Shown: in pieces, positions 1-20,509 of the stretch | How positions within the stretch are numbered: the stretch's first letter is position 1 | Layout of the letters: every line of letters begins with the position of its first letter | Virus record (IMG/VR): IMGVR_UViG_3300047564_004399 | Coordinates: 1-20,509 of that record | DNA from: a virus | Length of the DNA: 20,509 nucleotides | Reading direction: 5' to 3' (one strand) | Translations under genes and position numbers: made by a program | The notes under the pieces: model-generated | What the model was told of the DNA's origin: nothing | What the model saw: the letters and a program-made list of their open reading frames with translations, nothing else | Databases searched by the model: none

Positions 1-205
1 AAGGGGGCGGGGGAAAGTACTCTACTTTCTTCTTCGCCTTAGGGGGTTCGGCTACCGATAAGAGTATTTTCCTATCCTTGTAGGAGGGGAGTATCTTGCA
101 CTTCGAGATGTCAGAAATGAGGGGAACCCCATCGGCGTACCAAAACCCGTCTTTCCAGTAGATGAGTGTGACCTCGGGTCCTATGACACACTCACTATCT
201 GACAT
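1..205 (-). CDS. Unknown small protein, 3' end cut by the window edge
   Basis: The reverse strand is open from an ATG at 205-203 to the left edge, giving at least 68 residues that begin MSDSECVIGPEV. It is rich in aromatic residues early (IYWKDGFWYADG) and ends in a lysine/proline stretch (PPKAKKKVEYFPPP). No catalytic motif, signal peptide or membrane segment is visible and I do not recognise a family. The start lies 3 bases past the stop of the SpeD-like gene, so the two are probably co-transcribed and perhaps translationally coupled. The sequence before the start reads GATAAGAAATG, with only a weak ribosome site. Codon use resembles the neighbours. It could be a small phage accessory protein; function cannot be assigned. 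Confidence 0.6.
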   Translation of the reverse strand, partial: MSDSECVIGPEVTLIYWKDGFWYADGVPLISDISKCKILPSYKDRKILLSVAEPPKAKKKVEYFPPPP

Positions 206-208
206 TTC

Positions 209-592
209 TTATCTCGCTTGAATATCGTCAGTCAGAGATAACTTGTCGGTGCGGTCGAGCATAAACCACTCGGTCGAGACAGGCTCAAAGCACTCAAAGT
301 GCTTGAACACCACCTCTTTGTCGAAGTCCTTGCACGAGTACACATCAAGCTGAATAAGACCCGGAGACTCCTCATCCCACACATGGATTGCAATGTGAGA
401 AGTCTCGATAATGCACACGCCCGTCACCCCTCTGTTCCCCTCTTTATCTAAATAAGTGGCATGAGGGCCATTTAGGATATTCATGTCGATTTTAGAAATA
501 AGCTCTTTGAGCCAGTTCTTGACCTCTTCTGCGCTCATGGGGGGCTTCATAACATGAGAGCGGACAACAATGTGCTGATGGACTAGAGCCAT
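209..592 (-). CDS. speD: S-adenosylmethionine decarboxylase-like pyruvoyl enzyme
   Basis: The 127-residue protein matches the short prokaryotic AdoMet decarboxylase family in length and core motifs. The segment TSHIAIHVWDE (64-74) followed by LDVYSC (82-87) corresponds to the family's ESHxxxHTWPE...DVFTC. S65 is the predicted self-cleavage serine that becomes the pyruvoyl group; H70 and C87 match the processing histidine and catalytic cysteine of the Thermotoga enzyme. In the family the enzyme decarboxylates S-adenosylmethionine to supply aminopropyl groups for spermidine. The residue before the cleavage serine is Thr64 rather than the usual Glu, and WPE is WDE. Phage SpeD homologues are known, and some relatives have switched to decarboxylating arginine or ornithine, so the substrate is uncertain. 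No spermidine synthase gene is visible nearby. GAGGAA upstream is a plausible ribosome site. It lies between a nuclease gene and an unknown small gene, all leftward. Confidence 0.88.
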   Translation of the reverse strand: MALVHQHIVVRSHVMKPPMSAEEVKNWLKELISKIDMNILNGPHATYLDKEGNRGVTGVCIIETSHIAIHVWDEESPGLIQLDVYSCKDFDKEVVFKHFECFEPVSTEWFMLDRTDKLSLTDDIQAR

Positions 593-660
593 ATTCTGAT
601 TTCCTCAAAGGGAAGGGGTAGGGGGGAGTTGCCTAGTGTGGTGATAAAAATACTATGAGA

Positions 661-1038
661 CTACTCTTTCGTTCCGCCAAAATATGCCTTAGCGTGACCC
701 AAAGAAATCATCTTAGAGTTGATACTCTCTCCTAAGTCCGCGCCCTCTGCGGGTACTTCCCAAATCTCTCCAAGCCATCTCCCATATTTCTCCATACCTG
801 CGGTTCTAAGTATAATCTTTTTCCCTAAGATGACTGACCGAAGGTAGTCGCGCGCTTGCACCGCTTTAGCTTTAAGCTCAGGGTCTTTGGACTTCATTTC
901 GCAAGTGTCTATTCCAAGGACTCGAACTTTTATCTTAACAGAGGTAGAGAAGCCCATGTCCACAATACAATCAAAGGTGTCGCCGTCATACACGGAGGTG
1001 ACTTCTGCGAGGTAGTGATAGAGGGTAGGTATCGCCAT
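661..1038 (-). CDS. Staphylococcal nuclease-like (thermonuclease) protein
   Basis: The 125-residue protein is a single SNase domain with every catalytic position recognisable. VYDGDTF (17-23) supplies the calcium-binding aspartates D18 and D20 and T21; RVLGIDTCE (39-47) gives R39, D44 and E47, equivalent to R35, D40 and E43 of the staphylococcal enzyme; EKYGRWLG (83-90) gives R87. The family cuts single- and double-stranded DNA and RNA in a calcium-dependent reaction. There is no signal peptide, so it should act inside the infected cell, for example in host DNA breakdown or nucleotide salvage; that role is inferred. The start is supported by AGGAG seven bases upstream. It is the first gene of the leftward group, 68 bases ahead of the SpeD-like gene, and faces away from the structural operon. 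Confidence 0.9.
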   Translation of the reverse strand: MAIPTLYHYLAEVTSVYDGDTFDCIVDMGFSTSVKIKVRVLGIDTCEMKSKDPELKAKAVQARDYLRSVILGKKIILRTAGMEKYGRWLGEIWEVPAEGADLGESINSKMISLGHAKAYFGGTKE

Positions 1039-1160
1039 TTCTAATCTCCTAGTGTTGGGGGGGGTTAGGTGACGCGATGTGTGTGATAGAGGTATTATTT
1101 CAGAGTTTATTTATCCCTATCTCCTGCGAGACTTGGACTCGAACTGGGGGGAGAACCTAG
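1039..1160. promoter_or_regulatory. Divergent intergenic region, probable promoters both ways
   Basis: This 122-bp gap separates the leftward auxiliary genes from the rightward structural genes, so transcription must diverge here or readthrough must enter from outside. It holds a run of eight G (1057-1064), which becomes C8 in the leader of the nuclease gene, and an AT-rich patch, TATTATTTCAGAGTTTATTT, near 1092-1111. A TATTAT at 1092 could be a -10 element, but I see no convincing -35 at the right distance. The small inverted repeat TCTC-CTGC-GAGA lies near 1120-1131. GGGGGGAG just before 1161 is the ribosome site of the first structural gene. The promoter assignment rests on gene orientation, not on a strong motif. 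Confidence 0.4.
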
Positions 1161-2204
1161 ATGAGTTTTGACGCGCAACTAGCACACGCTTGTCCTCACT
1201 TCATAAGATATGAGCGCACAAGCATAAGCGGTGGGAGAGAAATCTTGCCTCTCTCCCCTATTTCTGGGAGCGGTATGCTCAAACTCAGAGTAGATGAAGT
1301 GGAGATACCCCCAGAGGGGCTTTTCTCTCTAGTGAGCGCGCCCTTCCCTAGTTCCGCCCCCTATAAGATAACCGCCACCTCGAACACCCTGCTGATAGCC
1401 TCCGAGTCCACAGAGGTAGAAATAACCTTGCCTGCGAAGATATACTCACAGGCAGAAATGATTTCTCAGATTAGCAAGTCTTTACCCCCCCCTTTTAGCG
1501 TGTCAGCGTATGGGCAATCAGTAGCGGTAGAGAACGGGGGGCAGACGAACAAGTTAACTCTGAGTGGGAGTGCTTTAGCGAGGTTAGGGTTCAAAGGAGC
1601 GCGCCTCACCAAGAGAGCCAAGACCCTTGCGCCCTCATGGAAGCTCGTTAAAGATAGGACAAGACCTGGGTCTAAGATTATTTTCTCCGACACATATGAA
1701 CCTCAGGGTCTAGTGGATATTTCCTACCTTGCGGAGAAGTCTTATTGTCGTAGGTGTGGGGGGACAGGGGTAGAGAACGACTTTAGGTTTGATGTGTCAG
1801 GGGACATACAAGTGATAGAGGGGTATGACCTACTTTATCAGGCGGTAGCTAAGATACTCTTAACACAATATCGCAGTAACCCCTACCACACTTGGTATGG
1901 GTCAACCGCCATTTCTCTTATAGGGAAGAAATCTAACTCAGGGACAGCTCTTGCGCTTAAAGACTCGGTGCGCGCTGCTCTCGATAACTTGGTTAACATC
2001 CAAGGACAACAGGTTAAAGTACAAGCGATGTCCTTAGAAGAAAGACTTAAAAGAGTGGTTAGCATAGATGTCACCTCTCTTGGAGATGACCAGACGGCAT
2101 ATCTAGTGAAAGTGGTAGTTGAGAGTATGTCCTCTCAACCCGTTTCTATCAACATCGTGTTTGCGGTGCCAGGTAGCATTCCCTTAGATGGAGGACTCGT
2201 ATGA
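1161..2204 (+). CDS. gp25-like baseplate wedge protein with N-terminal extension
   Basis: The last ~130 residues of this 347-residue protein look like the gp25/GPW baseplate wedge domain: a helix with LLYQAVAKILLTQYRSN (224-240), then YHTWYGS, a helical stretch with SVRAALDNL, a Q-rich segment QGQQVKVQ and SLEERLK, then beta strands ending near VFAVPG. In contractile tails this protein joins wedge to sheath. About 170 N-terminal residues form a separate, mostly beta region I cannot name. A YCRRCGGTGVEND segment (195-207) with C196 and C199 links the two parts and could bind a metal. T4 gp25 is far shorter (about 130 residues), so this is an extended form. GGGGGGAG seven bases upstream supports the start. 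The stop overlaps the start of the J-like gene by four bases (ATGA), consistent with translational coupling. Confidence 0.75.
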   Translation: MSFDAQLAHACPHFIRYERTSISGGREILPLSPISGSGMLKLRVDEVEIPPEGLFSLVSAPFPSSAPYKITATSNTLLIASESTEVEITLPAKIYSQAEMISQISKSLPPPFSVSAYGQSVAVENGGQTNKLTLSGSALARLGFKGARLTKRAKTLAPSWKLVKDRTRPGSKIIFSDTYEPQGLVDISYLAEKSYCRRCGGTGVENDFRFDVSGDIQVIEGYDLLYQAVAKILLTQYRSNPYHTWYGSTAISLIGKKSNSGTALALKDSVRAALDNLVNIQGQQVKVQAMSLEERLKRVVSIDVTSLGDDQTAYLVKVVVESMSSQPVSINIVFAVPGSIPLDGGLV

Positions 2205-5200
2205 TTACTATCACAACACCTGACGGGAATAGCGCGCACAACCCCGCCACTTACTCGACCTCTCAACACAACACTCGCATTTATGGTGCGAGTTCCTCTA
2301 CTTCACTAGAAATAAGATATGGGGGTACTCTCTTTACCTCTAGTGAAGGGGATATAGACATAGATGGAGATGGGTACTTTGTCTTTCCGAGCCCGATTAC
2401 TTATACAGAGGGCATAGACTTAATCGTTGGGGTTAACACCTTTGTAATCACAGGAAATAACGACCCTAGCTTTACGCTTAATGTCCTCTTAGAGCAGTCT
2501 TTGCCAGAAAGACCCGACCCTCCTTCTAATGTAAGAGTAGAGAGAGGGGCTAACTTCGTAGAAATAGTGTTCGCGCACACGGACAGCGCGGTGTCGTTCT
2601 ACACGATATATGCAGCCACGACCTCAGGGGGCGGAAGTATTGGCTACGCTCAGATTAACTACCAGCCCCTCGACCCCTCAACATATGGTGCGCGCTCTGA
2701 AGCAGAAAGCCTCATCGGAGAAATAGCTCTCGACTCGGCTACGGAAGAAGCAGACCCACTCATTTCTGAAGTACGACTAGCTCAGATGGGCGAGGGAGAA
2801 GACCTCTCCGTTTCTGTTGTGGGTTCTGTAGAAATACCTGAGGGTACTTCTCGAATAAGAACTAAGGCGACGCTCTACTCAGTCAGCCTCAATACGAATA
2901 TCAAGTTCCGCCACGATAGAAATGCAGACGCGCTCTCGTCACCCCCTACAATACAAGTGGGCGACTTCACCGCGCTCAGTTCTGAAGAGCCTCTCTATTA
3001 TGTCGTCACCGCCACTAAAGTTGTCTCAGGTGTCGAAATCGAGTCCCCCTTTTCCTCAGAGGTGTCGGGCAAACCTATCTCTGTTGGCTCTACTAATCTG
3101 AGCCTCCCTGCGGTCACAAGAAATATCCTAACACAAGACATGATTAGAGGGATATACTTAGCGCAACCAGGTGTCTCCGTACAAGCAGGCTCAGTTATCC
3201 GAGATGTGATTATTGACCCCTTTGTCTCAGAAATGGAGAGGTCTAGGTTTATCCTAGATTTCCTCTATCGCTCCTCTTCGTTCGCAGGGCTGATACAGGT
3301 TGATGACCCCCTAAATGAGGGTGCCTCTATCAATGTCGCGGACTCGCAGTATAAGACAGCCCTCAAGAGAGCATTATTTCTACAATCAGACTCTGATGTA
3401 CAGGCGTTGATAGACCAGTCGTTTGAGAAGCTAGCCTCTAACTTTGGGGTCACTAGAAAGATAGGGACTTTCGCGCGCGGTGAAGTGGACTTCTATACTC
3501 TGAAGGTCCCCTCCACAAGCTATTCAATCCCTTCAGGCACAATAGTGTCTGGTGGCGGTGTTCAGTTCGCGACCACCGCGTCAGTATCTATTCCGCTAGA
3601 CCAGCTCGCGAGATACTACAACCCCATCACTAAGAGATATATTGTCTCCGCTCCCGTCGTAGCGCGAACCATAGGCACCGCAGGCAACCTTGCCTCAGGA
3701 CAAATCCTCGCAGGCGCGCCCCTCGGTCTAAGTGTCACTAACAGCTCTCCCACTTTCGGTGGCTCAGATACTGAGAATAACAAAGAACTAAGCTCACGCA
3801 CCCTCGGAGTACTTAGCTCTGTAGACACAGGCACAAAAGCAGGATATGAGCGTATCTCGCGCGCTACCGCAGGGGTCATTTCTTCGTTCGTTGTTGGCGC
3901 GGAAAGCCCCTTTATGGAAAGGGATAACGGGCTTGGGGGCAAGGTAGATATATGGATAAGAGGAAGCGCCCCACGCACAGTCACAGATGTGTTTGCCCCT
4001 AGCTTCAACTCTCGTTTTGGCACTAAGTTTATCCCCGTCGGGGGCGTAGGCTCATACCGCTTCAGGTCAGTTGATGCCACCCCTGAAAACCCCATTTCTG
4101 AAATGATAAACAGAAATGATTTACTGAACAAGTTTGGGTTAAAGAACGCGACCACAGGGGCTTTCTTCGACCTGACAGGCTACACAATAGAAGACTATCG
4201 CACTATCGCCCTCAATACGGCTATCACACAACCCACATATACTCTTACTTCTATCATCTTAGGAGACTGGAGAGGCAACACATCGGAGAAGCTCTACCTC
4301 ACTCGGCAACCTGTCATTTCTGTGTCTTCTGTTAAAACTGAAGATGGGACTTCTCTTGAGGGGTACTCCCTAGTCAATGCAGAAGACCCCCTACAACTAG
4401 GAAGGTCGAGTAAAGCGAGCGCATATGTCGTACTCGATAACCCCACAGAAAGAAGTAAGATTATTCAAGTGTCCGATGAGTCCCATGTCATTATAGGGCA
4501 ATACCCTGAGCGACTCAATAAGCTAGGGGCAGATGAGATTACTATTTCTGTGACCAACCTAAATGGGACTATCACTTACGAGGGACCTTTTCAGTCGGGC
4601 ACACCAGATTACACTATCTTAAACGAGGGCGGTGGGGTCGTGTCTATCAAGAGAACCACCTCCTCGAATATCGCAGATGGAGAGCAGATACTCATTTCTT
4701 ATGAGTATCTTGAGAACATCACGATTACATACACCACGAACCTTGTAGTCCCCACCGCGCAAGCGAACCTAGACGCGAATAAGAACCTTGGCGCTGATGT
4801 AGTCGTCAAAGAGACAATCCCTGTCTCAGTAGATATAGTCGCAACGATAGTGTTGGAGCGCGGGGTCTCTATTTCTAGTGCAGACACCATACTCAGATAT
4901 AACCTCACAAACTTCATAGAGAAGGCTATCTTGGGGGGGAAGATATATCTCTCAGAAATAATCAGAGAGATGAACAACACGACGGGCGTGAGCCATGTGA
5001 GACTACCTCTCACAAGGCTAAGTGTGGGGGCGGGGAGCTATATACTGCGCGAGGAAATTAACCCTGCGTTGGGGGTATATACTCAACTGAGCCTCTCCAA
5101 CTCTAAAGTAGCGGTCTGGGCGATTGACACCCCCATACAAAACCTGCCCATAGATGGGGGTGGAGAAATGGGGCGTGTGTTTATTAATGGGGTTGAAGCC

Positions 5201-5470
5201 ACCCTTCTTAACACGCTTCAGAGGACCAACTCCGCTTATTGGGACATAGGGAGAGCCACGATAGTGGGCGCGCAAGGGCTTGGGGTGGGCTACCCCAACA
5301 CAGCGCGCAAAGTAATCGTAGCCCTGCCTCATGGAATAAGTCCTGTGTCTCAAACCCTTAAAGTGGATTATATTGTTGAAAGCTCCACCGAGGTAGTCTC
5401 AGAAATATCCCTAAACGAGTTCTCCTATTTCGTGATGGGGGATATGTCCTTCACTTATGAGGTGGTCTAA
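2201..5470 (+). CDS. Baseplate J-like (gp6-type) wedge protein
   Basis: The 1089-residue protein contains a baseplate-J core at about 425-590: FARGEVDFYTL, then IPSGTIVSGGGVQF, SAPVVARTIGTAGNLASG, SVTNSSPTFGGSDTE, and VLSSVDTGTKAGYERISR. This matches the family pattern of an IP-x-GT turn, a G-x-x-GN turn and a GG-x-D-x-E turn. J/gp6 proteins form the dimeric core of the baseplate wedge. The N-terminus differs from a minimal J: residues 1-95 look like a beta-sandwich with DIDGDGYF, and about 103-290 starts PPSNVRVERG like a fibronectin-III domain. A helical stretch at 310-420 precedes the core. The C-terminal half is beta-rich and not assigned. GGAGG at 2190-2194, inside the previous gene, is six bases ahead of the start. 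The stop TAA overlaps the next start by one base (TAATG). It is larger than typical J proteins (about 300-650 residues). Confidence 0.85.
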   Translation: MITITTPDGNSAHNPATYSTSQHNTRIYGASSSTSLEIRYGGTLFTSSEGDIDIDGDGYFVFPSPITYTEGIDLIVGVNTFVITGNNDPSFTLNVLLEQSLPERPDPPSNVRVERGANFVEIVFAHTDSAVSFYTIYAATTSGGGSIGYAQINYQPLDPSTYGARSEAESLIGEIALDSATEEADPLISEVRLAQMGEGEDLSVSVVGSVEIPEGTSRIRTKATLYSVSLNTNIKFRHDRNADALSSPPTIQVGDFTALSSEEPLYYVVTATKVVSGVEIESPFSSEVSGKPISVGSTNLSLPAVTRNILTQDMIRGIYLAQPGVSVQAGSVIRDVIIDPFVSEMERSRFILDFLYRSSSFAGLIQVDDPLNEGASINVADSQYKTALKRALFLQSDSDVQALIDQSFEKLASNFGVTRKIGTFARGEVDFYTLKVPSTSYSIPSGTIVSGGGVQFATTASVSIPLDQLARYYNPITKRYIVSAPVVARTIGTAGNLASGQILAGAPLGLSVTNSSPTFGGSDTENNKELSSRTLGVLSSVDTGTKAGYERISRATAGVISSFVVGAESPFMERDNGLGGKVDIWIRGSAPRTVTDVFAPSFNSRFGTKFIPVGGVGSYRFRSVDATPENPISEMINRNDLLNKFGLKNATTGAFFDLTGYTIEDYRTIALNTAITQPTYTLTSIILGDWRGNTSEKLYLTRQPVISVSSVKTEDGTSLEGYSLVNAEDPLQLGRSSKASAYVVLDNPTERSKIIQVSDESHVIIGQYPERLNKLGADEITISVTNLNGTITYEGPFQSGTPDYTILNEGGGVVSIKRTTSSNIADGEQILISYEYLENITITYTTNLVVPTAQANLDANKNLGADVVVKETIPVSVDIVATIVLERGVSISSADTILRYNLTNFIEKAILGGKIYLSEIIREMNNTTGVSHVRLPLTRLSVGAGSYILREEINPALGVYTQLSLSNSKVAVWAIDTPIQNLPIDGGGEMGRVFINGVEATLLNTLQRTNSAYWDIGRATIVGAQGLGVGYPNTARKVIVALPHGISPVSQTLKVDYIVESSTEVVSEISLNEFSYFVMGDMSFTYEVV

Positions 5471-8400
5471 TGAGTCTCCCTTTCGACACTAGGACTACAA
5501 GGGAAGTCATCGGTGGCGCTTCTACGCCCACTAGAGCCTTCAAAGACAGCCTCTCCGAACAAATAGTTAAGAACTTATCCCTCGCCACCCCCTCTAACTA
5601 TCTTTCTAATCAGTACGGTTCTAACCATAGAGTCATCTACGAGACTATCAGCGCGCTCCTCGCTGACTTTATCGTGGATAATCTCGACCTAGCCGACGAC
5701 TCCGATTTCTATGAGCTAAGACCTGAATTCTTAGCCTCAAAACTCACAGAAATTATCTTCAACTCAGACACAATCCCTGAGACAGACACCGACCTAGAAC
5801 TCCGCAAGGCGAGTATCGAGACTCTACTCGCCCTTCTACAAGGAAGCACAGAGAAGTCTATTTCTGAGTTATTACTGAGTCAAGCAGGGGGGTCAAAAGT
5901 AGACCTCTCCCAAGTGTCCACCCACGAGGTCAGCTTGCTCAGTAGTGTCCTCGCTTATACGGGGTTCTCAGATTACGAGGGTGTGCAGGCTCACCGCCAC
6001 TATGCAGTAGCCCCTGAGAAAGGGGTAGGGGCGACACTCCAGCCAATCGGGTACAAATGGGGAGATGACCTGCACACCCATGAAGTCATAGATGGCGTAG
6101 TACAGCCCCACACCGATGGACACACCCACACTATCGAGTACGGGCTCCCTACTAATGTAGTCCGACTTCAGAGTAATCTCGCTAAATACCTCAACACCAC
6201 TAAACCCGCTCACCTCAAAACAAGCGTGGTTTCTACCCTTCTCTCTGAGAGTATCTCACCCCCCTCCGAAGAGTTTGTCACATACCCCCAAGAAATTGGC
6301 GAAGTCACCTCACCATTTCTATTCTCAATAAGTCTGCCTTATCAAGACGACATGAGAAAAGCGCGCGGGGGGACTTGGGAAAATGTCATCTATGGCTACT
6401 CCTCCTCTAACACCTTCATCGTGTATAGAGGACTCATAGAAATAGGAGACAAGCTACTCACAGGCACACAAGTAAGAAATATACTCTCGTACACAAGCGT
6501 GACCCCCTCTGATGGAGAATACTCGTGGGAATTCCCACGGCTCGATACCTCAGGAACAGGTAGTGTCACAGGGGGATATCTCTACGATGACTCCGCAAGC
6601 CTATTTCCTTTCGTAGAAGAAGGCGAAATAGTCTTACTTAACGACACCCCTTATTTCTGTGAGCCAAGAGCCGAGGGGTACTTACACTTATCTGCGATTG
6701 AAATAACCCTCGATAGCGTAGCTGAGGACACAGGGCTTATTGAGGGGACCTTCCTAGACTACCCCTGGATAACCGCGCCCCTTCGGTATAGGTTCATTGA
6801 GCTTTTCGGAGATGGAACAGACGAGATAGAAATAAGAGTACCTCTCAAGAGAGTGCATAAGGGATTACCCCTCCTTGCGGAAGACCTTATTTTTGAGGTG
6901 GGCGCGCCAAGTGTCGAGAGGTTCGTAGCGAGCTTAAATAAGATTTATTTCTCCGATGTCGTGGCTTCAGGGGAGCGCGTGTTTGTTGGGGTTCCTATAA
7001 GTGATGAAGACTTCGTTAACATCACAGCACTCAATGACACTCGGTTCAGACTCAACCTCTCAAGGACATCTACTCAAGTAGAAACAACCGCGAGTAGGGG
7101 GTTCTACACAGGGACTAACACATCTCTCGCGTCACTAGGGCGCTTCACCCCCGCTAATGTACTCTGGAAATCCACCCCCATCAGACCATACTCTGAGGAA
7201 GTGTACTCGCGTAAAGTTGAACTCATGGGGTCTCGGACAACGAATACTCCGAGTATGACCCTCAATAACAATTTCCTCTTAAATAAGACCTATTCCCCCC
7301 AAGCCACCCCCACAGCTAACATCAGAGGGTACGCCACCAAGAGCGTGCTGAACAGAGATGGGAAAATCTCCTACTCCGACCTTGGCTTCAAGCCCAAGTT
7401 TCTTATTTCTATAGAGAGTGGAGTAGTACCAGGGGCAGAGTATGAGGGAACCCTTACGGACAGATATGTTCTAGTGCCGAGCGCGCCCCTTAATCACCCT
7501 CTCGTTGTCACAGCCATTTCTGTAGAAGCATATGAGTCTAGTAGCTGGGCAAAAGGGGAAATACTGAGCGAAGGTCAACCTAGTTTTGATAGCTCAGACT
7601 CACTCCTAGAAAACGCCTTATCTTCTTTGAGCGCGCCCTCCGTTGAAGACATCATGGATAACCCCAAAGGACTCATCATAAGAGATGGGGCAAGCGACCA
7701 AAATAGGGGGATTATTCATAGCAAGACCACTTCAGCTAGCGGAAAAGTGGGGGAGAGAGTTTTCTACTCGGACGAGTTCACCTCGCTTGCTATTTCAGGA
7801 CTCCCATTCATTTCAGAAATAGAGGGTACAACCGACCCTCTTGTTTCTAGGAGGCCTTCACTTACGCTCAACTCCACCGACACACACATAGGGTTCGACT
7901 CAGTTCTAGCGCGCTCTAGGGAAGTCTTACGGACAGATGTGTTCCTAGAACTCATACTGCCCCCAGCCGAAACAGAGGCTTTCGTTGAAGATAGCCTCCC
8001 TCTTATTTCTGATGAAGCCTTAGGGGTATTTGCGTGGGCGTTATCGGATAGTATATCCCCCCTAAGTGACGAGGTGGGGGTAAGTATCTCTCCCGTTCTT
8101 AACGAGGCACTCCCCTTAATCCTAGACGAAGTAGAGATAGCTACTGCGGTGACTATTTCTGTAGCGGATACCCTTCCTGCTCAAACCGATGACGCGAGCG
8201 GTGACTTGGTAGCTGTCTCTGCGTCTGTGGGAGACTCGGTTCCGACTCTGAGCGATGAGGCAGATGGGGTACTCAACATTACGAGTGCCTCTGTGACGGA
8301 CGCTATCCCCACGATGAGCGATGTTGCGACAGGAGATTATAACACACCCGCAGACTTCACTCTTTACGCCGCGCTGACAGCAAACCAGTACACCGTAACG

Positions 8401-9345: not shown

Positions 9346-9360
9346 CCCCAAAATCCTTCA

Positions 9361-9366: not shown

Positions 9367-9368
9367 TT

Positions 9369-10926: not shown

Positions 10927-13900
10927 ATGGCGAACTATATCCCCACTACATCAAGACAGCTAGACGCGAATAAGCGCGCATGGCTGAGTGTCGTCTATCA
11001 GTCTGGGAAATCTATCCTAGACTCTGAGCTTAACTTGGCTCAAGAACTCTCTAACGCGAAGAAATACTCCGCCCTCCCTAGTGGGGTCATCTCTCGTCAA
11101 AACGAGGGAGTGTTCTCAGAAATAAGCACGCCTAACACCCTCTCGATGAGCGCGTTCACCGCTAATGTAGCAGGCTATGAAGTCTATGTGGGGGGTACTA
11201 ACTCTAGTGACCCCTCGATTAATCTTATCGAGCTTCCAGAACCCGACTTACAATCAGGAAGCCCACCCGATGAAAAAAGAACCGACTTCGTATTTCTTGA
11301 GGTATGGAAAGCCCTTGTCTCCCCGCCCATGCCTTCTAAAGGGTATTTTAGAGTCGTCTATAATGACGACCTCGTCGCAGGAGACACCCTCACCCTAGAT
11401 GGAAGCGCGCTCGGTGGGGGTATCCTCTCCCTCGTGGCTGACACCGACTTCAATATCGGAGCCACAGGAGCAGAAACAGCTAGAAATATAAGAGATGCTA
11501 TCAACTCGGCAGATACCCTTGCCGAGATAGGCACCCTCGTCACCGCAGACGCTAAAGGAACAGAGTTTGTATTTCTCTACGCCCCCACTGGGACAGCAGG
11601 AAATAACATAGCGATAAGCGTCACTCTGAGTGTGACAGCAGCTATTACTATAAAAGAGTTCGCAGGCGGAACGGACGGCGCAGGACTCTCCGCAGGGGGA
11701 GATTTCTTCTTCGCAGGAAATACTCAGAGTGACCCATCTCTCAATTTCGCCAATGACTTAATAGACCCTGAGATGGGCGTGGAGACCACACAGAGGGTTC
11801 AGCTCCAATATCGCTTCAGAGTGTTCTCAGGCGTTAACCCCAAGACAGAGATATATGGCTTTGATAACACAGGGGTCTTCGCGCAAGGGGGCAACAACTC
11901 CGTAGTCGCAGACTACCTCTTTTCTAGGGCGACAGGCACTTCTGAAGTACGCCCAACAGATGGCGGAACCAACGACTACCCTTATGAGGATGTTGGGTTG
12001 TTTTACTCTGGCGAGGGAACCGAAGCGGATGCCACCGCGCTCTCAAGCGTAGATGGATATGTGTATGCGATACCCATCTGCTATGTCTTCAGAAAGAGCG
12101 TTGGGTTCTTCTCCCCAAGTCTCTACGCTAATAGCGCGCTCCTCTCTACACACGATGGCACAGTAGGAAATGCGAGCCTCGATATAGGCACTACTTTCGT
12201 ACCTGATGTAGGAGAGTCGGACAGACCCGATGGGAAGTTCTCAGACTTGATTTATCTCTCGGACATCCTTGATTTGAGGCGGAGTGTCTCCCCTAGTCGT
12301 AATACCCCTTCTGAACTCACTAAGCAGTTCCACGCGCTACTAGACAACCAACATAGAACATGGGCTATGGACGGCTCAGACTATTTACCGATAGGACAAG
12401 GTAGCGGAGACATTTCTACAACCCCCCTCATCTGTGATGAGATAGGGAGGAGCGTAGCTCTAGGCGGAGAGGGGGACACCACAGGGAGGGGGAACTTCAT
12501 ACGGAACTTTGACCATATCGCCTCTCGGTTCTCTAGCGCGCCTGTCGCTGAAAGACTAGTCTTAGAAATACTCCCTCAAACGGCAATCCCTGACCCCACG
12601 CTAGGGGTCATCATCAATCACGCTGTTCCTGGTTATTGGACAGAGGGTGATGAGATAGAAATAGATTTAGAGTATTTTGACGCTACAGGGTACTTCGACT
12701 GGACTATGCCTGGGGGTCCAATAAGACCCTCGCTACTCTGGCCTACAGGAACCACGGTTACAGATGTGATTGAGGCTTGGCATGACGATGGGAACTATAA
12801 CGCCACCGTGAGCCAAACCGCGCATTTCTCAAGTATTACTGGGTTAGGGACAACCACCATTACTCTTACGCTCGACAGAAATCAGACGGCTGTGACAGGG
12901 GGGATTAATCAACCTGAATATCCGATGGTGGGGTACACAGGAGTCACGGGGTCAGAGCGCGCGATTTACTTAGTCCTCCTCGTAGAATACCCCGCTGGAG
13001 AAGGACTCAGCGCGACTCCTATTCAGAGTTTAGAAAACCCTAGCCCGATTTATGCTTCGGGTGCCGTCATAGAGTACGACAGGAACCAACGCGCTACCGA
13101 CTCAGAGCCTGCGCCTCCTTTTGTGTCGTTCAGAGAAGGGGTGCGAGAAGTACTCGTAGAAAGAGTAGTCTCGACGAATAAGCAGTTAGTCTCAAAAGAC
13201 GCTTCAAGTGTTCGACTACCTTGGAAACTCGCTAAGGGGTCGTACACCACAGCAGGGGGCGGTGTGGCAGGGGGAACTGATGTGAACATAGACCCTCAGA
13301 TTACGGACACTACGACTTCTAGTAGCGTACCTATTAACGCAGGAGCGTCTGTGTATGGGAGTACGGAGTCCTCTCTTGTATTTCAGAGCGCGCTCCCTGC
13401 TCAACGACTCTTACAAGTTAATCACTACTCCCTCGCCCCTGTCTCCAACTTCGGAACGGGCTATCAAATCGCAGTCTATTATAGGGCAGTCGCACCCCAG
13501 ACCTGTGGCACTAAAGCAGACCCCATTTCTACCCTTGTGCCGACCACACTCACGCTCGAACCCCTAGTTATTTCTGAGAGCTTATGGTCAATACAGGCGG
13601 GAGCGGGGTCATCAGACGAGAGTTTCCCTTATGCGTCACCCTCGGTGCAGATAGGCGTGTCTCCTAGTATCTCTGAGTACAACGACGAGGGGAGCTTACA
13701 GGCGAGTAGCTTTGTGAGCCTACACGACTTTTCTATCAACTCAGGGCTTGTGTCTCTGCCGACACACTTGCCCATAGATAGTAACTCAGAAATAGTCTTG
13801 AAGTCGCCTCAGTTGGATCAAGAGGCGAGGGTGGTTTACACTCTAAGCGAGGCAGGGATATACGCCCCTAGTGCTTACTCGAAGAACTTACTTGAGAGCG

Positions 13901-14115
13901 CGCAACACAAGAACGCGGTTCCCTTACTCGCAAGAGTCAAAGAAGGCTCCACCCTTTATCGAAAGGGCGAAGTAGTCTTAGTAGTTATTTCTAGGCTCTC
14001 AGAACCCCTAACAAGCGCGGGGTCAGAGGGGAACTATGTCGCGCTCTCATCAAGCGCGAGCAGGACAATCGCGTGCGTCTATCGCACTAAGAACCTCCTA
14101 GTGAGTGGGGAATAA
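10927..14115 (+). CDS. Large virion protein with 'Q-x-G-x-x-x-LDSELNL' N-terminal domain
   Basis: The 1062-residue protein begins with VVYQSGKSILDSELNLAQEL (22-41), then RTDFVFLEVWKALVSP (118-133). Both motifs recur in the truncated gene at 19975, so this N-terminal region is a paralogous domain. Residues about 139-252 form an extra domain with AGDTLTLDG, GAETARNIRDAIN, GTAGNNIAI and FAGGTDG, a pattern seen in several phage tail proteins; the paralogue lacks it at the equivalent place. After LIDPEMGVETTQRVQLQYRFRVF the protein continues as long beta-rich regions. The opening motif recalls phage DUF4815-type virion proteins, but that is a resemblance only. There is no signal peptide or membrane helix. 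GAGAGG and GAGGA precede the start. Probable role: baseplate periphery or fibre attachment, from context. Confidence 0.75.
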   Translation: MANYIPTTSRQLDANKRAWLSVVYQSGKSILDSELNLAQELSNAKKYSALPSGVISRQNEGVFSEISTPNTLSMSAFTANVAGYEVYVGGTNSSDPSINLIELPEPDLQSGSPPDEKRTDFVFLEVWKALVSPPMPSKGYFRVVYNDDLVAGDTLTLDGSALGGGILSLVADTDFNIGATGAETARNIRDAINSADTLAEIGTLVTADAKGTEFVFLYAPTGTAGNNIAISVTLSVTAAITIKEFAGGTDGAGLSAGGDFFFAGNTQSDPSLNFANDLIDPEMGVETTQRVQLQYRFRVFSGVNPKTEIYGFDNTGVFAQGGNNSVVADYLFSRATGTSEVRPTDGGTNDYPYEDVGLFYSGEGTEADATALSSVDGYVYAIPICYVFRKSVGFFSPSLYANSALLSTHDGTVGNASLDIGTTFVPDVGESDRPDGKFSDLIYLSDILDLRRSVSPSRNTPSELTKQFHALLDNQHRTWAMDGSDYLPIGQGSGDISTTPLICDEIGRSVALGGEGDTTGRGNFIRNFDHIASRFSSAPVAERLVLEILPQTAIPDPTLGVIINHAVPGYWTEGDEIEIDLEYFDATGYFDWTMPGGPIRPSLLWPTGTTVTDVIEAWHDDGNYNATVSQTAHFSSITGLGTTTITLTLDRNQTAVTGGINQPEYPMVGYTGVTGSERAIYLVLLVEYPAGEGLSATPIQSLENPSPIYASGAVIEYDRNQRATDSEPAPPFVSFREGVREVLVERVVSTNKQLVSKDASSVRLPWKLAKGSYTTAGGGVAGGTDVNIDPQITDTTTSSSVPINAGASVYGSTESSLVFQSALPAQRLLQVNHYSLAPVSNFGTGYQIAVYYRAVAPQTCGTKADPISTLVPTTLTLEPLVISESLWSIQAGAGSSDESFPYASPSVQIGVSPSISEYNDEGSLQASSFVSLHDFSINSGLVSLPTHLPIDSNSEIVLKSPQLDQEARVVYTLSEAGIYAPSAYSKNLLESAQHKNAVPLLARVKEGSTLYRKGEVVLVVISRLSEPLTSAGSEGNYVALSSSASRTIACVYRTKNLLVSGE

Positions 14116-14118
14116 GAA

Positions 14119-17100
14119 ATGCCAAAGTCCTCTAACCCTATTGTTGTTGGTGATGGGGTTAAACCCGCACAAGATGGCTTAGGAAATAACCTCTCGACTC
14201 AAGTGACTATCGTTGAGGGCGCGTATGAGGCGAGTCAGATTTCCGCGCTCAATCCATTTAATACCTATCTAGGCGATGACGCTCAGAGTCACTTCGATGA
14301 CCTAGCAGGTGCAGTTCAAAAACGGCCCCCTTATGTTGGGGAAAGCTCGATTAGCTTTACCGCAGGCGCGCTCTCCTCCTCTATTTCTGGCATACCCGAC
14401 TGGGGCGTACTCAAGCAGGCAGACGCTCCTATTTGGGAGCGCGCCACGAGCATTACTTTTGAGGGGGTCACAACCAACTCTGAGGATTTCCTCCTCCCCT
14501 CAAGTGAGACTTTCTTTTACAATCGAGAAACCCCCCTCCCTCTCGGAATAGAGGGCTCTGACCCTCGCACCGACTCGGTGTTTAATATCATAGACCCTTT
14601 GCTCTTAGGGGGCGGTGAGGGCGCGTCTTTCTTGTGTGGTCGAGTGGGCGATGAGAGCATTAATGTAGGCGACCCTAATACTCAGAGAGACTTCCCTCTA
14701 ACGAGAGCGACTTATGCAGGAGCGAGCGATGGGACTGCCTCAGATGGGTTCACTATCTCAGGGTTCTTATTTCCTGCCGATAGAGGGACTCTCGCGCTCG
14801 TGCATTGGAATGGCGATACCGCCACGATGCTCACCCCAGCCTCAAGCATTGAGGACATACGAGAGCGCGTTATCGCTGCTATCAATCTTAATGGGGGGAA
14901 TAACCCTGATGACCCCTCTATCTTTACGATAGGGGCAGACCAAAGCGCATTTCCTAGCCGACTAAGCGGGCAATACGACCTATACGAGTTACAGACAGCC
15001 AAATATAGGTCAGACTTGAGTAATGGGGGCGACCCTATACCTAGTCTTTCTGCGGATAACTCCTTAGGGTCGGTTAGACTCTTAAGAGACTCTAACGCTG
15101 CCTACTTCGGTGAAGGCATAGATGTCGTGGACACAACAAGGGGTCACTTGCCCGTCCTCTTTGGCGCGTATGAGTGGGATACAGGCACTTCTGATTGGGT
15201 AGAAACAGAGGCTAATTTCTTAGCGTATCGTTTGCCCATGTTAGAGGACTACTCCGCGAGTGGGATACACACCCCAAGAGAAAACAGAGAGCGGTTCTTC
15301 AGAGTAGTCCAGCCCGCCTCGACTACCACGCCCTTTTCTACGGCAGGGAACTATGTGACGCTAGGGTCTGACCACTACCCCTCCCAAGTAGCGCGTTATC
15401 GCCATGTAGTGAAATACTCAGAAATGGCAGGGGTGTCGGGTTCGGAAGTGGGCAGTATCGCGCTCATTCACTTCAAAACAGAATCTGCCTTCGAGAAACT
15501 AGCCCGCGATGGCATAGCCCCCTCTCCAAATGACCTCTGGAGCGTGCGCCTCTTTAACTACAACCAAGGGACAGCAGAAGCTAACACTATTTCTGAGGGA
15601 GAGGCATACACCCCCACAGGCGCGCCCACTATCGGAACGCCTATAGACGCTCTCTCTAATCCTATCATCAGACCTTATGTCTATGTCTCAGATAGGAGCG
15701 CAGACTCGAAGTTGAGCGCAGACCCCGATGGGAAATATGTAGCCGTCTTTGAGCAATATAACACAGACCTAACGGGGGGGGTATTTCTGAGAGAAAACGG
15801 CTACTACACCACTATCTCAGGGGTCAAGTACCTACTGCCGAGGTTCTATAGCGCGTATAGAGAAGATAGCTCGCGTAGCTTAGGGTATCAGAATATAGAT
15901 GTGCCTATTAATTTCTCTGAGATGGGGGGTCTAAGCCCCTTCGCGAGTCCTTTCTATACTTCGACTTTGGGCGCGCTGTTTGAGCGCGAGTACAAGACAC
16001 CCCTCAACACGGTGTCTCTTAACTTTAGCGCGTTTACGGGTGAGGACAACCTCTCTGTAGATTGGAGCAATGGCTCAACTTACGCGACTATTTCTGAGAG
16101 CTTAATACAGAGAGTGGAAGTACCTATAGACTACATGACGGATGGACTCGATAGTGGGTCAACCCTCAATGCGGTTTCTATGCGTGTTCGACCTCTAGGA
16201 GATACAGGACTCTGCGCGTTCTCCGAGGGCTTGTGGTCGAGCGCGCTCATCAAAGACCCCCTCTACCACTACGATGGGCTAGGCATCTCTAAAGTTCTTA
16301 TTTCCACCCCTATCGAGGACTCTGCGTCTGCTCCTGCGACTAAGATACTCTATCACTCAGCGCGCTTGCTCTCTCTCATAGAGAACTGTGCCACAAGCGT
16401 AGTGAACCTCTATGTGAACTATCTCTCAGTATCTAGGACTAAAGACTGCGCGTTCTCTATCTTCAGATATGACGAGGAGGGGTTCAGGGTCTATCAAGAA
16501 CTCACCATCGAACAACCCCTCGTGCTTCAGAAATGCTCAGGGCTTAACAAAGAGGGAACATTTCCTGTGGTGCAGTTCCCTGACTACCCCACTTACCGAC
16601 CTGCTCAATATTCTAACTACACTTCAACGATAGACATCAACACCCCTATCGCCACTTTTGAGTCGGTAGATGGATGTTTTTACTACATAGAGGTTCACCC
16701 TACAAGTGACTCAAGCTCTAATGCTGATTACTTACAGGTCGTGAAGCTCCCCTCTATATTCACAAATGGCGATAGCGGTTTTGCTGACTATCAAGCAATC
16801 TATGACCTACGAGTAACTCAATCTAAACTCTACGAGAACCCCTCAAACTGGTATGAGTCGTATGGGACTTTAGGCTACCTTCTTGGTCGTTTCTTGACCT
16901 ATGAGAACGGCTATACGAACCATAATAACATAGCTTCTTTTGAACACCCCTATCTACCTGCGCTCGTTGCCTCGGATGACTATGGGAAATGGATAGTCGA
17001 AGCCCCTAAGAGTGATGGCACAGAGTTACCCTCTTATGGGAACTTCACCGAAGACGAGCTAGGTATTATTTCTGTGCAGGGTATGTCTGCCCCCTTAGGT

Positions 17101-19248
17101 TTAACCGTAGTTATCCCTGCTTGGGCGGATAGTGCTTCTACACTAGATAAAAGGGGGTTATCTACGCTGTTTACAGCGCGCAAGGACACACAAGAGAGAT
17201 TTCTTGATGAGTCTTATCGCATATACCCTAACTTCTTGGGGTTTGATGTTGCGTACTTATACAGGAGTCCTGTGCCTACAGGGTGGGACGCGAACACACA
17301 GGATCAACTCTCAGATGGGGGGCTCCCTCTTGGGGTGTCTCCCATAGATTTCTTCGTGAGAGATGACAGCGAAGTGTTGAGTGGCATAAACTCTTTTGGT
17401 TCTAATCATAGCGCATCAGGGTATCTCAGAAATGGGCTTCACCTTAATTTCATAGGGGCTAATGACCTTCCCCTCTCAGAGGTGCGCGCGCTACCCCCCA
17501 TGCCTGATGCTGTCCTCTCAGGGGCGAAATATGGTCAACCTAGAAGGGGTGTGTTAGTCTGTCCTGGACAGACCGACTACACAAGCTCAGACTATATCCC
17601 TAACTCAACCTATGACGCTTCGTGGACAAATGACGCGGGAGCGACACCTGCGTTATGGTTCGACCAGCCCGATAACACAGAGCCTGCCGTAGATAGGGTG
17701 TACTTCGTGCGCGCTTTTGATATGGCGTTTAGTCGAAGCGGAACGACCGAAGAAGTAGAGGGTATTTCTACGATTAAGTTTAGGGTGGTTGGGCTGTCCT
17801 TCGATGAGTTCTCAGGGGTAGATAGAGGCGTAGAAATTCAGTTCAAGATACCTGGCAAGACCGCGTGGTTAGATTGCGCGAAGTCTTATGGGTACGGAGA
17901 CATCACGAGCGCGGTTCGCGATGGCGCAGGGTGCCTCGTGTCTGCTAGTGATAAACTCCTAGTGGATGAGGGAGTCATTTGCTGCGACTTGAACCTGAAC
18001 CTGGGACAGAACTTATTTCTGAACTCAGAAGGGGAAGCTACTGTACTGGTGCGCGTCATACACCACATGACGAGCGCAGGGCGCGCCCTCGACTTTGGGG
18101 TGTCAGGAGACACTAAGACCCCTATCAGAAACAGAAGGGGTCTGATTGGACTAGAGGTGCTAAGAAATTCAAACGGGGAAAACTTTGATGGAGATGAGAC
18201 ACATCTCGTTAGAGAAATAAGTGTCAGTCTTGTGAACCTAGCAGACACCTGCGCGCTCTCTGACGATGGTGCAACAGGGGTCATTCCTACTCAATACTTA
18301 GGGTTCTCCATCGTAACGAGGACAACGACCCCTGTAGAAGGCGAGGGGTTCAGCGTCTATAGGGCAACAGGCATTTCTGATGTGTCATATCCTGTAGTAG
18401 TGGAAGACCCTGCGTTCGACTCGATGACGATATACAACTATTCTGAGCCTATGCGAAGGATGGTCTATCCTTGGGATATTACCGTTGAGCTACCCTTCCT
18501 TTACGGCTATTTCCAAAGTGTAGAGCCTGGGGTCTATACTATTTATGCGGTGACAACGGTAGACGAGAACTTAGACCCAGAGCTGAACATCGCATTCGAG
18601 GTGAACGACTCTCCCGTCCTATTGGCGAGCGGTAGTCTTACTTACACTAACTTGCTGAGTGGTGACTTAGGCACCTCAACTTATCGCATACATGAGCTTA
18701 CTATAGGGACAGACCTTTCTGTGAGTCTTAACCTAGATGTGGACACAGGAACGCGGTTAACCCCAGGGGACTTGAGGACAACTACCATCTACTTACAAGG
18801 TAGAAATGCGACGACTTATTCTGATGAAAGCACTCCTGAGGTCACATTTAGTCTATATGACCTCACAGCGGGGGCAGATGTTGTTTTAGGGTTAGGCACG
18901 GACACTAAGTGGACACTAGGGGTGGGAAATACCATAGCGTATTTCGAGGCAGACCAGGCTTTTGAGAATAGCGCGGACACTAAGTCCCTTGAGTGTTCTC
19001 TCAGGGTAGGTCGTAGCTACAAGATGACCTGCACAGGCTCACATATCGCGAGCCTAGAAATTAAGATGGCGGTGGACACCCCAACTACAAAGTGGTCTGT
19101 TGGGGCATATGCACTCCCAACAACTACGGTAGGGGGGGACTACACTCAGCTTATGCCGAGTGGGGGTAACGGGAACACCTACGAACACTATTTCTATTTA
19201 AGAGATGATGGGTATCTTGTGTTCGAGTATAGACCCGACCCCATTTAA
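14119..19248 (+). CDS. Very large fibre-like virion protein (1709 residues)
   Basis: This is the longest gene in the window. The N-terminus (NPIVVGDGVKPAQDG...NPFNTYLGDDAQSHFDDL) is followed by about 1400 residues of beta-rich sequence without enzymatic motifs I can name. Two related fibre-type domains close it. One lies at about 1468-1541 (PGVYTIYAVTT...GTSTYRIHELTIG) and one at about 1628-1708 (GRSYKMTCTGS...YTQLMPSGGNGNTYEHYFYL). The last matches a segment of the 1291-residue protein (YVQLYPSSNGSNTYYKHTF). No signal peptide or membrane segment is seen. The ribosome site is weak (GGGGA 14107-14111), and the start is three bases after the previous TAA, so translational coupling is likely. 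Size, composition and position suggest a tail fibre or baseplate appendage that contacts the host; the receptor cannot be inferred. Confidence 0.7.
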   Translation: MPKSSNPIVVGDGVKPAQDGLGNNLSTQVTIVEGAYEASQISALNPFNTYLGDDAQSHFDDLAGAVQKRPPYVGESSISFTAGALSSSISGIPDWGVLKQADAPIWERATSITFEGVTTNSEDFLLPSSETFFYNRETPLPLGIEGSDPRTDSVFNIIDPLLLGGGEGASFLCGRVGDESINVGDPNTQRDFPLTRATYAGASDGTASDGFTISGFLFPADRGTLALVHWNGDTATMLTPASSIEDIRERVIAAINLNGGNNPDDPSIFTIGADQSAFPSRLSGQYDLYELQTAKYRSDLSNGGDPIPSLSADNSLGSVRLLRDSNAAYFGEGIDVVDTTRGHLPVLFGAYEWDTGTSDWVETEANFLAYRLPMLEDYSASGIHTPRENRERFFRVVQPASTTTPFSTAGNYVTLGSDHYPSQVARYRHVVKYSEMAGVSGSEVGSIALIHFKTESAFEKLARDGIAPSPNDLWSVRLFNYNQGTAEANTISEGEAYTPTGAPTIGTPIDALSNPIIRPYVYVSDRSADSKLSADPDGKYVAVFEQYNTDLTGGVFLRENGYYTTISGVKYLLPRFYSAYREDSSRSLGYQNIDVPINFSEMGGLSPFASPFYTSTLGALFEREYKTPLNTVSLNFSAFTGEDNLSVDWSNGSTYATISESLIQRVEVPIDYMTDGLDSGSTLNAVSMRVRPLGDTGLCAFSEGLWSSALIKDPLYHYDGLGISKVLISTPIEDSASAPATKILYHSARLLSLIENCATSVVNLYVNYLSVSRTKDCAFSIFRYDEEGFRVYQELTIEQPLVLQKCSGLNKEGTFPVVQFPDYPTYRPAQYSNYTSTIDINTPIATFESVDGCFYYIEVHPTSDSSSNADYLQVVKLPSIFTNGDSGFADYQAIYDLRVTQSKLYENPSNWYESYGTLGYLLGRFLTYENGYTNHNNIASFEHPYLPALVASDDYGKWIVEAPKSDGTELPSYGNFTEDELGIISVQGMSAPLGLTVVIPAWADSASTLDKRGLSTLFTARKDTQERFLDESYRIYPNFLGFDVAYLYRSPVPTGWDANTQDQLSDGGLPLGVSPIDFFVRDDSEVLSGINSFGSNHSASGYLRNGLHLNFIGANDLPLSEVRALPPMPDAVLSGAKYGQPRRGVLVCPGQTDYTSSDYIPNSTYDASWTNDAGATPALWFDQPDNTEPAVDRVYFVRAFDMAFSRSGTTEEVEGISTIKFRVVGLSFDEFSGVDRGVEIQFKIPGKTAWLDCAKSYGYGDITSAVRDGAGCLVSASDKLLVDEGVICCDLNLNLGQNLFLNSEGEATVLVRVIHHMTSAGRALDFGVSGDTKTPIRNRRGLIGLEVLRNSNGENFDGDETHLVREISVSLVNLADTCALSDDGATGVIPTQYLGFSIVTRTTTPVEGEGFSVYRATGISDVSYPVVVEDPAFDSMTIYNYSEPMRRMVYPWDITVELPFLYGYFQSVEPGVYTIYAVTTVDENLDPELNIAFEVNDSPVLLASGSLTYTNLLSGDLGTSTYRIHELTIGTDLSVSLNLDVDTGTRLTPGDLRTTTIYLQGRNATTYSDESTPEVTFSLYDLTAGADVVLGLGTDTKWTLGVGNTIAYFEADQAFENSADTKSLECSLRVGRSYKMTCTGSHIASLEIKMAVDTPTTKWSVGAYALPTTTVGGDYTQLMPSGGNGNTYEHYFYLRDDGYLVFEYRPDPI

Positions 19249-19259
19249 TAGGAGAGCTT

Positions 19260-19961
19260 ATGATAATCTACTCTAGAAAAGACGACACGCCCATACAGAC
19301 TCTGAGGAGCTTCCCTACAGGGGTATCTATTTCTATGAACGGCAAGTATCTCTTGGATTTTCCGGACACCTTTGAGGTGGGAGATATGTCGGACACGCCA
19401 TCTAATATTGCGGAGAATATCATCAAGCCACAATTCTTAGTGGAGTACCCTTCCTATGATTATGTGGTGTATAACCCTTTGCTCAGTTCAGTTGGAGTGT
19501 TCGACACAACCGCGCGCTATCCTGCGCCTACTGGGAGTGTCCCCTCGCGCTGTAAAATAGGAGACACTCCCAACACTTGTTCTATCCTCAGAAATAATCT
19601 TGCAGCGGGCAGACCCGGAGTGGGGATTACGGAGGAAATAGATATAGCGGGGGAGACTGACGATGGTCTTGGTCGAGAGACTTATCTCTTGTATTGGCGC
19701 GCGGTCACTAAAGGGGTGAGCCATGATGTGAGTCCTGTAGGGGACTCTACTGAAAACACCCCTGCGCTTGTGACTTACTCAGAAATGGAAGACGGCGCAC
19801 AATACTCGGTTTATATCTCAAGCGATGGGGGTATCACTTATCAGAGGATAGAGAAACTCACCCCTTTCTCGTTTAGTACGAGGGCTAACTCTGTAAGATT
19901 AGCCTTCATAAACGAGGGTGATAGCGACCTCTACATACTCTCGTATGCCCTAATGTTCTGA
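19260..19961 (+). CDS. Unrecognised 233-residue structural protein
   Basis: I do not recognise a family. The protein begins MIIYSRKDDTPIQTL, has an early SISMNGKYLLDFPDTF, a pair of cysteines (CKIGDTPNTC, residues about 99-108), and a C-terminal part with DGAQYSVYISSDGG and DSDLYILSYALMF. The C-terminal segment has the look of the beta-rich fibre domains in the preceding gene, though the match is weak. AGGAG five bases ahead of ATG supports the start, 11 bases after the previous stop. Its position between the 1709-residue fibre-like gene and the paralogue of the 1062-residue gene suggests a fibre accessory or tip protein. No membrane segment or signal peptide is visible. Confidence 0.65.
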   Translation: MIIYSRKDDTPIQTLRSFPTGVSISMNGKYLLDFPDTFEVGDMSDTPSNIAENIIKPQFLVEYPSYDYVVYNPLLSSVGVFDTTARYPAPTGSVPSRCKIGDTPNTCSILRNNLAAGRPGVGITEEIDIAGETDDGLGRETYLLYWRAVTKGVSHDVSPVGDSTENTPALVTYSEMEDGAQYSVYISSDGGITYQRIEKLTPFSFSTRANSVRLAFINEGDSDLYILSYALMF

Positions 19962-19965
19962 GGAG
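19960..19965 (+). promoter_or_regulatory. Ribosome site overlapping the upstream stop codon
   Basis: GAGGAG at 19960-19965 overlaps the TGA (19959-19961) of the 233-residue gene and lies nine bases before the ATG at 19975. This fixes the start of the last gene and implies that translation of the two genes is linked. Confidence 0.6.
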
Positions 19966-19974
19966 AAAATAGAA

Positions 19975-20509
19975 ATGGCAGAGAACTTCGGTACGGGAGT
20001 GTCTAGGGTCTTAGAAGTACTAGGACACCAAATTTCTAATGTTGTCTGGCAAGCTGGAAAGCCCCCTCTCGACAGCGAACTGAACTTAATGACTCAGGTG
20101 CAATGGGAAGCCCTCGCATCTAGTCTGAGAGGTCAAGTGCATAGTGGGTTCTTGCTCGACCCCACGCGCGCGAAGGACGACTTCACTTTCTATGAGCGTT
20201 CCTCTAACTTCTTTGAAATGAACAGGAGCGCGGAGAGCCCTCTAATCGCGGTCGTAAATGGGTGGGTCATCCCTATCTTGGGGACAAACTCTGAGAACGG
20301 AGTCTCGAACGAGATACTCCTCCCTGCACCACCAGAAACCGATGCGCGCACCGATGTTGTTTTCCTAGAGGTGTGGCGCGCCCTTCTTTCACCTAGCCCT
20401 AGCACCACAGGTAAGCCATCGGCTACCACAACATTTAAGTATGGAAATGTGGACTTCCTAGAGAGTACGCACACAGACGAGATGATAGACCCTGCGCTAG
20501 GGTTCGAGA
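19975..20509 (+). CDS. Paralogue of the 1062-residue virion protein, cut by the right edge
   Basis: The frame is open from ATG 19975 to the window end (178 complete codons). It shares VVWQAGKPPLDSELNL (23-38) with VVYQSGKSILDSELNL of the gene at 10927. It also has RTDVVFLEVWRALLSP against RTDFVFLEVWKALVSP, and MIDPALGFE against LIDPEMGVE. The ~115-residue 'GDTLTLDG...GGTDG' domain of the earlier gene is missing: after the LLSP motif the sequence passes through a short FKYGNVDFLE stretch to the IDP motif. GAGGAG nine bases upstream overlaps the stop of the 233-residue gene and supports the start. Like its paralogue, it is probably a baseplate or fibre-attachment virion component. The rest lies outside the window. 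Confidence 0.8.
   Translation, partial: MAENFGTGVSRVLEVLGHQISNVVWQAGKPPLDSELNLMTQVQWEALASSLRGQVHSGFLLDPTRAKDDFTFYERSSNFFEMNRSAESPLIAVVNGWVIPILGTNSENGVSNEILLPAPPETDARTDVVFLEVWRALLSPSPSTTGKPSATTTFKYGNVDFLESTHTDEMIDPALGFE

Follow-up and report, generated by a model that had tools for sequence, protein, structure and literature searches.

A seven-base word iterated across a clade of huge phages: a tentative case for a genome-wide double-stranded recognition site

Short words repeated throughout genomes are known from several systems. The DNA uptake sequences (DUS) of Neisseriaceae and the uptake signal sequences (USS) of Pasteurellaceae are dispersed, strand-symmetric and found in coding DNA too, and the Chi sites of RecBCD and AddAB are asymmetric short words with taxon-specific variants. 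Iterated words such as the highly iterated palindrome HIP1 have long been known in cellular genomes without an agreed function. HIP1 (GCGATCGC) and its relatives in cyanobacteria are genome-wide short words which replace one another by lineage, in genomes that carry DNA methyltransferases (PMC4390886). Here we describe a word of this kind, AGAAAT/ATTTCT and its extended form RGAAATR, in IMG/VR record IMGVR_UViG_3300047564_004399. The window, i.e. the whole stretch of 20,509 bp that was analysed, is the entire record of this virus and is the tail region of a huge myovirus-like phage.

Like HIP, the phage word is a single short word in extreme excess across the genome. In contrast to HIP, it occurs in phages, is 7 bp long and non-palindromic (RGAAATR/YATTTCY is asymmetric, although a second window word, GCGCGC, is palindromic), is over-evenly spaced in some genomes and reaches about 1-5 copies per kb compared with about 0.5-2.5 per kb for HIP (PMC4390886); cognate methylation is here only putative. 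It is much denser than DUS and USS, and the phage has no competence biology. Chi is polar in action and far rarer, whereas the phage word has no orientation effect on its spacing. Restriction-site avoidance, described in phages (PMC6286503), co-occurs in these genomes (GCGC is absent from the 376 kb of the relative G011), but avoidance takes words away; it does not produce one that is saturated and conserved. In the open-access papers to which our search was limited, no phage precedent for such an iterated word was found. With its lineage switching, strong saturation and measurable spacing, a phage word would make a compact system for pairing word with reader and purpose through comparison, and for direct tests.

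A preliminary description of the window had counted, by eye, about 29 copies of AGAAAT/ATTTCT in the first 5 kb and about 90 overall, in near-equal orientations. Exact counting gave 30 (16 + 14) and 96 (46 + 50), against expectations of 10.3 (mononucleotide) and 10.8 (dinucleotide) for the window, confirming that the excess is real and that both orientations are used almost equally. The word is the commonest hexamer pair of the window. A codon-preserving shuffle, named in that description as a possible refutation, was run within the ten window genes with proteins and codon usage held fixed, and the excess survived: 90 coding copies were present, compared with a mean of 18.6 (standard deviation 4.2, maximum 31) in 300 shuffles. 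All six reading frames are used, as had been claimed, if unequally (ATT TCT accounts for 30 and xxA GAA ATx for 28 of the 90 coding copies). The heptamer AGAAATA is raised over the codon shuffle in each of the six gene frames, 3.0- to 12-fold in the window and 3.0- to 7.3-fold in the relative G003. A codon-pair or translational cause was rejected, since the antisense frames are enriched too.

The extended form proposed earlier, with a pyrimidine before and a purine after AGAAAT, held on the 3' side (purine in 80%) and was weaker on the 5' side (pyrimidine in 71%). Among the N-GAAAT-N heptamers of the window, AGAAATA was raised 8.0-fold over the codon shuffle, AGAAATG 6.7-fold, GGAAATA 3.4-fold and GGAAATG 3.3-fold; eleven of the remaining 12 lay at or below 1.6-fold and AGAAATT at 2.2-fold. 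All four purine-flanked forms are thus raised, and the unit in the window is therefore RGAAATR. A consensus longer than this 7-mer was dropped, there being little information in the outer flanks. RGAAATR occurs 102 times, compared with 9.5 ± 3.2 in the codon shuffle, with gaps of 201 bp on average (coefficient of variation [CV] 0.66, largest gap 701 bp), from a first site at 113-119(+) to a last at 20443-20449(+). Within and at the 3' end of the gene at 9369-10058, GGAAATG stands in place of AGAAATR, the form of most of the window.

Because the record ends with the window, the question of whether the excess continues over the rest of the genome was put to relatives. A search of viral contigs with the baseplate wedge protein found 33 loci, ten at 49-56% identity and 23 at 29-36%. 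A query built from a methyltransferase alignment added further clade members, including G010, G011 (375 kb), G012 and G013, where a single-protein query returned only two loci. AGAAAT occurs at 4.5-5.2 copies per kb in G003, G004, G005, G006, G007 and G009 and at 3.2 per kb in G002. These relatives have a G+C content of 0.38-0.43, compared with 0.50 in the window, despite the common excess. In G001 and G008, AGAAAG takes the place of AGAAAT (4.6-4.7 per kb, whole records). The AGAAAT excess is absent from the 23 distant loci and from LR745208.1, an uncultured phage of 485 kb, which is the window's closest relative in the phage collection, with a baseplate J protein 39% identical. The over-represented word is a property of the clade, not a local one.

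Its spelling differs by lineage. Over the codon shuffle, RGAAATR is raised in the window, G002 and G010; AGAAATA in G003, G004, G006 and G009, with GGAAATA at about 2.3-fold in G003 and G009; AGAAATC in G011 (4.4-fold, with AGAAATA at 0.9-fold and AGAAATG at 0.7-fold) and G013 (2.5-fold); and AGAAAGA, less sharply, in G001. Most non-word neighbours lie near one-fold in these tables, G001 being the least sharp. No comparable AGAAANN pattern was seen in the codon-shuffle tables of T4, lambda, phiKZ, phage G, P-SSM2, Tunturi_5, LR745208.1 and G014; the tables of word-less phages are noisier, with scattered values up to about 2.4-fold on small counts.

We then related the copies present to the positions at which the encoded proteins permit the word in any of the six frames. 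RGAAATR fills 95 of 163 such positions in the window (58%). AGAAATA fills 309 of 526 (59%) in G003 and 264 of 420 (63%) in G009, ranking first of 5,798 and of 4,368 heptamers, respectively, where the median heptamer fills about 3%. In G011, AGAAATC fills 33% (rank 1 of 7,541) and AGAAATA 5%. The positions are also conserved. In codon alignments, with the expected retention computed from independent codons, AGAAATA was kept at 103 of 176 sites between G003 and G009 (26 expected; the top z of the tested heptamers) and at 42 of 106 between G003 and G006 (9.3 expected). Between the window and G002, which share 53% nucleotide identity, RGAAATR was kept at 16 of 71 sites (2.5 expected; rank 1 of 102 cores). 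Even between G003 and G004, which are 98% identical, the word was kept at 129 of 136 sites compared with 82.5% for other one-G/C heptamers (P about 2×10−5).

Word density in coding DNA is about that of intergenic DNA in G003 and G009, and in G001 the intergenic density is higher. Copies are randomly oriented along G003, G009 and G011; in G001, neighbouring copies share orientation at a frequency of 0.61 (0.50 expected). For spacing, the null was a synonymous Gibbs sampler with an equal reward per word and the count matched to that observed; it replaced an earlier null, a random pick among permissible positions, because permissible positions can overlap. The window is over-evenly spaced, with a gap CV of 0.70 compared with 0.91 ± 0.07 (reached in 0 of 150 null runs) and 20% of gaps below 100 bp compared with 34%. 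Gaps below 100 bp made up 25% in G002 (32% in the null) and, up to base 325,000, 2.2% in G011 (9.5% in the null). In G011, pairs less than 200 bp apart are at least about two-fold rarer than in the null, to about the same degree for same and opposite orientations. Altogether, short-range repulsion was seen in four of seven tested genomes, clearly in the window, G002 and G011 and weakly in G010. As controls, nine further enriched words of G011, the window and G002 had no significant spacing effect; GCGCGC in the window was the one exception of ten. Word-poor stretches occur in G001 (227057-232471, one AGAAAGA in 5.4 kb) and in G011 (about 330-375 kb, 2-6 AGAAATC per 10 kb); they are possibly recent acquisitions that are still unadapted.

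The preliminary description had suggested a double-stranded DNA signal, and six-frame enrichment, similar or higher intergenic density, mostly random orientation, conservation of position and the over-even spacing of the window all support it. There is strong support for a process that acts on the word as such, in double-stranded DNA, and keeps up RGAAATR with its variants; codon usage, base composition and the avoidance of restriction sites are not enough to account for it. Two of the functions listed there fared less well: the density of the copies rules out packaging through one pac site, and a recombination word with polarity is made less likely by the like depletion of both orientation pairings.

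We tentatively favour, at a little under an even chance, the reading that RGAAATR is a selected genome-wide double-stranded recognition site, read by a sequence-specific, probably phage-encoded protein of lineage-drifting specificity, which we infer to be a methyltransferase. Selection would keep the word dispersed so that stretches of the phage genome rarely lie far from a copy, and the specificity of the reader would drift by lineage, from RGAAATR to AGAAATA, AGAAATC or AGAAAGA. The reader may belong to the N6/N4-type DNA methyltransferases that these phages encode in tandem, and a putative methyl mark on the sites could tell phage from host DNA, or new from old strand, for a further factor. 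In a possible but doubtful elaboration, huge phages would write a lineage-specific self-address, a methylated or protein-bound 7-bp word every ~200-1,000 bp that fills up to 60% of allowed positions, its spelling tracking the phage-encoded reader and marking phage DNA against that of host or rival phage. An iterated phage word would also shed light on the ways in which huge phages label or arrange their DNA where the restriction pressure of the host seems extreme.

By parallel with HIP words, which occur in genomes with cognate methyltransferases (PMC4390886), the most economical guess is a methyltransferase as reader; these tandem enzymes are the best candidates. At least three full-length N6/N4-type paralogues stand in tandem in each of G001, G003, G008, G010, G011, G012 and G013; G009 has two full-length members with further methyltransferases alongside, and G002 one partial member at a contig end. 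In the word-less LR745208.1 and G031, the search gave no more than a weak, partial match lying within a larger open frame. Family members carry an invariant SPPYF and the S-adenosylmethionine-binding motif SxGWGDRLVGF and fall within PF01555, two full-length members scoring 29.6 and 30.4 bits (cut-off 26.7). A structure model (predicted local distance difference test score 86) suggests a Rossmann-type methyltransferase domain after a largely helical N-terminal part, and the model matches methyltransferases of that type. The G003 array adjoins a DnaB-like helicase gene. One orthologous methyltransferase group is present in G001, G002, G003, G009 and G010, and the AGAAATC lineage is without it.

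Several observations weigh against this reading. No orthologous methyltransferase group is common to all word-bearing genomes, the word-less G014 has one full-length family member, and the word-bearing G004-G007, which are fragments, give no methyltransferase match; the window itself stops short of the region. The link between methyltransferase and word, as seen in sequence, is thus to be taken as association rather than proof. The case for selection for coverage over a site-independent mutational drive depends on the spacing results of the window, G002 and G011. It is weakened by G003, G009 and, overall, G001, in which no over-even spacing appeared under the Gibbs null, a result that is unexplained; in G010 the effect is weak.

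Alternatively, the reader may be not a methyltransferase but some other abundant DNA-binding phage protein with a requirement for sites at intervals of a few hundred bases, acting in condensation of the genome or filling of the head, in a nucleus-like compartment, in partition or in silencing. We regard this as somewhat unlikely. The graded flank tolerance (GGAAATR and AGAAATC are intermediate in some genomes) would fit a binding energy, and orientation-independent repulsion over 100-200 bp would fit a footprint or redundancy. However, no candidate protein came to light, and the very sharp specificity in G011, with AGAAATC raised and AGAAATA not, looks more enzyme-like.

A functionless mutation or repair drive, as proposed for the HIP words of cyanobacteria, appears to us unlikely. 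Biased mismatch repair would spare methylated sites or restore them, and they would accumulate without regard to one another. Elhai's HIP model links over-represented words to cognate methyltransferases (PMC4390886), the most saturated genomes, G003 and G009, show no spacing effect, and such a drive would explain conservation equally well. Copies accumulating site by site are not expected to repel each other at short range, as they do in the window, G002 and G011. MutS was found in none of ten phage records (a host MutS could serve) and C5 methyltransferases in none of eight. Among the one-base neighbours of the word, none is clearly depleted in the way a donor would be, which also led us to reject Vsr-like conversion of donor words.

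Very unlikely, in our estimate, is a Chi-like or exonuclease-stop word that shields phage DNA ends from a helicase-nuclease of host or phage, its variants following the Chi specificity of the host. Short asymmetric words of taxon-specific spelling are typical of bacterial Chi. Chi is polar, yet orientation of the phage word is random in three of four genomes and the repulsion in G011 is the same for both orientations. A search for AddAB/RecBCD-like enzymes found solely a PDDEXK RecB-like nuclease of roughly 330 aa, which occurs in the word-less LR745208.1 too. In eleven bacterial genomes with distant relatives of the methyltransferases (Legionella, Limnohabitans, Porticoccaceae and others), AGAAATA was not clearly in excess, outnumbering the reversed word 1.7-fold at most. 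As for the host, a search of the genome collection with the baseplate protein found no relative; the sites upstream of starts are AGGAG-like, which argues against a Bacteroidota host.

We give next to no credence to a by-product of codon choice, base composition or restriction-palindrome avoidance: avoidance is extreme, non-palindromic purine-rich words are generally raised and an order-4 Markov model predicts 88 of the 96 copies, but from 5-mers that are themselves raised by the word, while the codon shuffle (18.6 ± 4.2 against 90) sets the word apart from such by-products and the AGAAATA/AGAAATC switch, the rank-1 conservation of position and the repulsion all go unexplained.

Some further features of the methyltransferase regions were recorded. 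The paralogues have a common C-terminal tail, NFFGV or TYFGV (G001 101161-109364, G003 39224-44007, G009 61983-66993), and the same NFFGV tail is found on an unrelated ABC/GNAT-like protein (G009 61983-63134). The C-terminal ends of D12-type neighbours, QLDLFGL or QVDLFGI, resemble a sliding-clamp-binding motif. The array of G001 includes thymidylate-synthase-like and PP-loop/asparagine-synthase-like genes (104537-106130; L040:4537-6130), which are possible base-modification genes.

The genes and word fields of the window are listed in Table 1. Open frames were called mechanically, and the contigs are fragments.

Table 1. Genes and iterated words of the window.
Feature	Position	Strand	Remarks
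RGAAATR field, 102 sites	1..20509	53 forward, 49 reverse	includes most of the 96 AGAAAT copies
GCGCGC palindrome, 45 copies	850..20381		second over-represented, over-spaced window word
S-adenosylmethionine decarboxylase gene	209..592	-	PF02675 (6e-14), phrog_3125
Staphylococcal-nuclease-like endonuclease gene	661..1038	-	PF00565, phrog_452
Baseplate wedge / sheath-initiator-like gene	1161..2204	+	phrog_43/975/120; query that found the clade
Baseplate J-like gene	2201..5470	+	PF04865 (5.8e-21), phrog_6; many word sites inside
1,291-aa tail-region protein	5470..9345	+	without family match; word sites inside
Two adjacent genes of one family of unknown function	9369-10058 and 10273-10905		phrog_5417
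1,062-aa tail-region protein	10927..14115	+	without family match; word sites inside
1,709-aa tail-region protein	14119..19248	+	sole relative in phage collection LR745208.1; word sites inside

The second window word, GCGCGC, exceeds the 2.1 copies expected from a dinucleotide shuffle and is raised 7.7-fold over the codon shuffle in coding DNA; its gap CV is 0.79, compared with 1.06 in the null. It may keep away from RGAAATR, with 10 pairs within 50 bp compared with 22 under a null that is not codon-aware. GCGC is absent from most relatives, while GCGCGC is abundant in the window. Other palindromes are scarce there (ACGT 0, GATC 2, CCGG 5, GGCC 5, AATT 17). The loss of palindromes is lineage-specific: in G011 there is no GCGC and ACGT stands at 0.0 per kb in 376 kb, G003 has neither GCGC nor CGCG in 97 kb, and in G014 CTAG stands at 0.0 per kb in 66 kb. 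Non-palindromes are avoided too, CCAG/CTGG being reduced to 0.07 of the expected count in G001 and G002, and CACTG/CAGTG to two copies in the window where 40 were expected.

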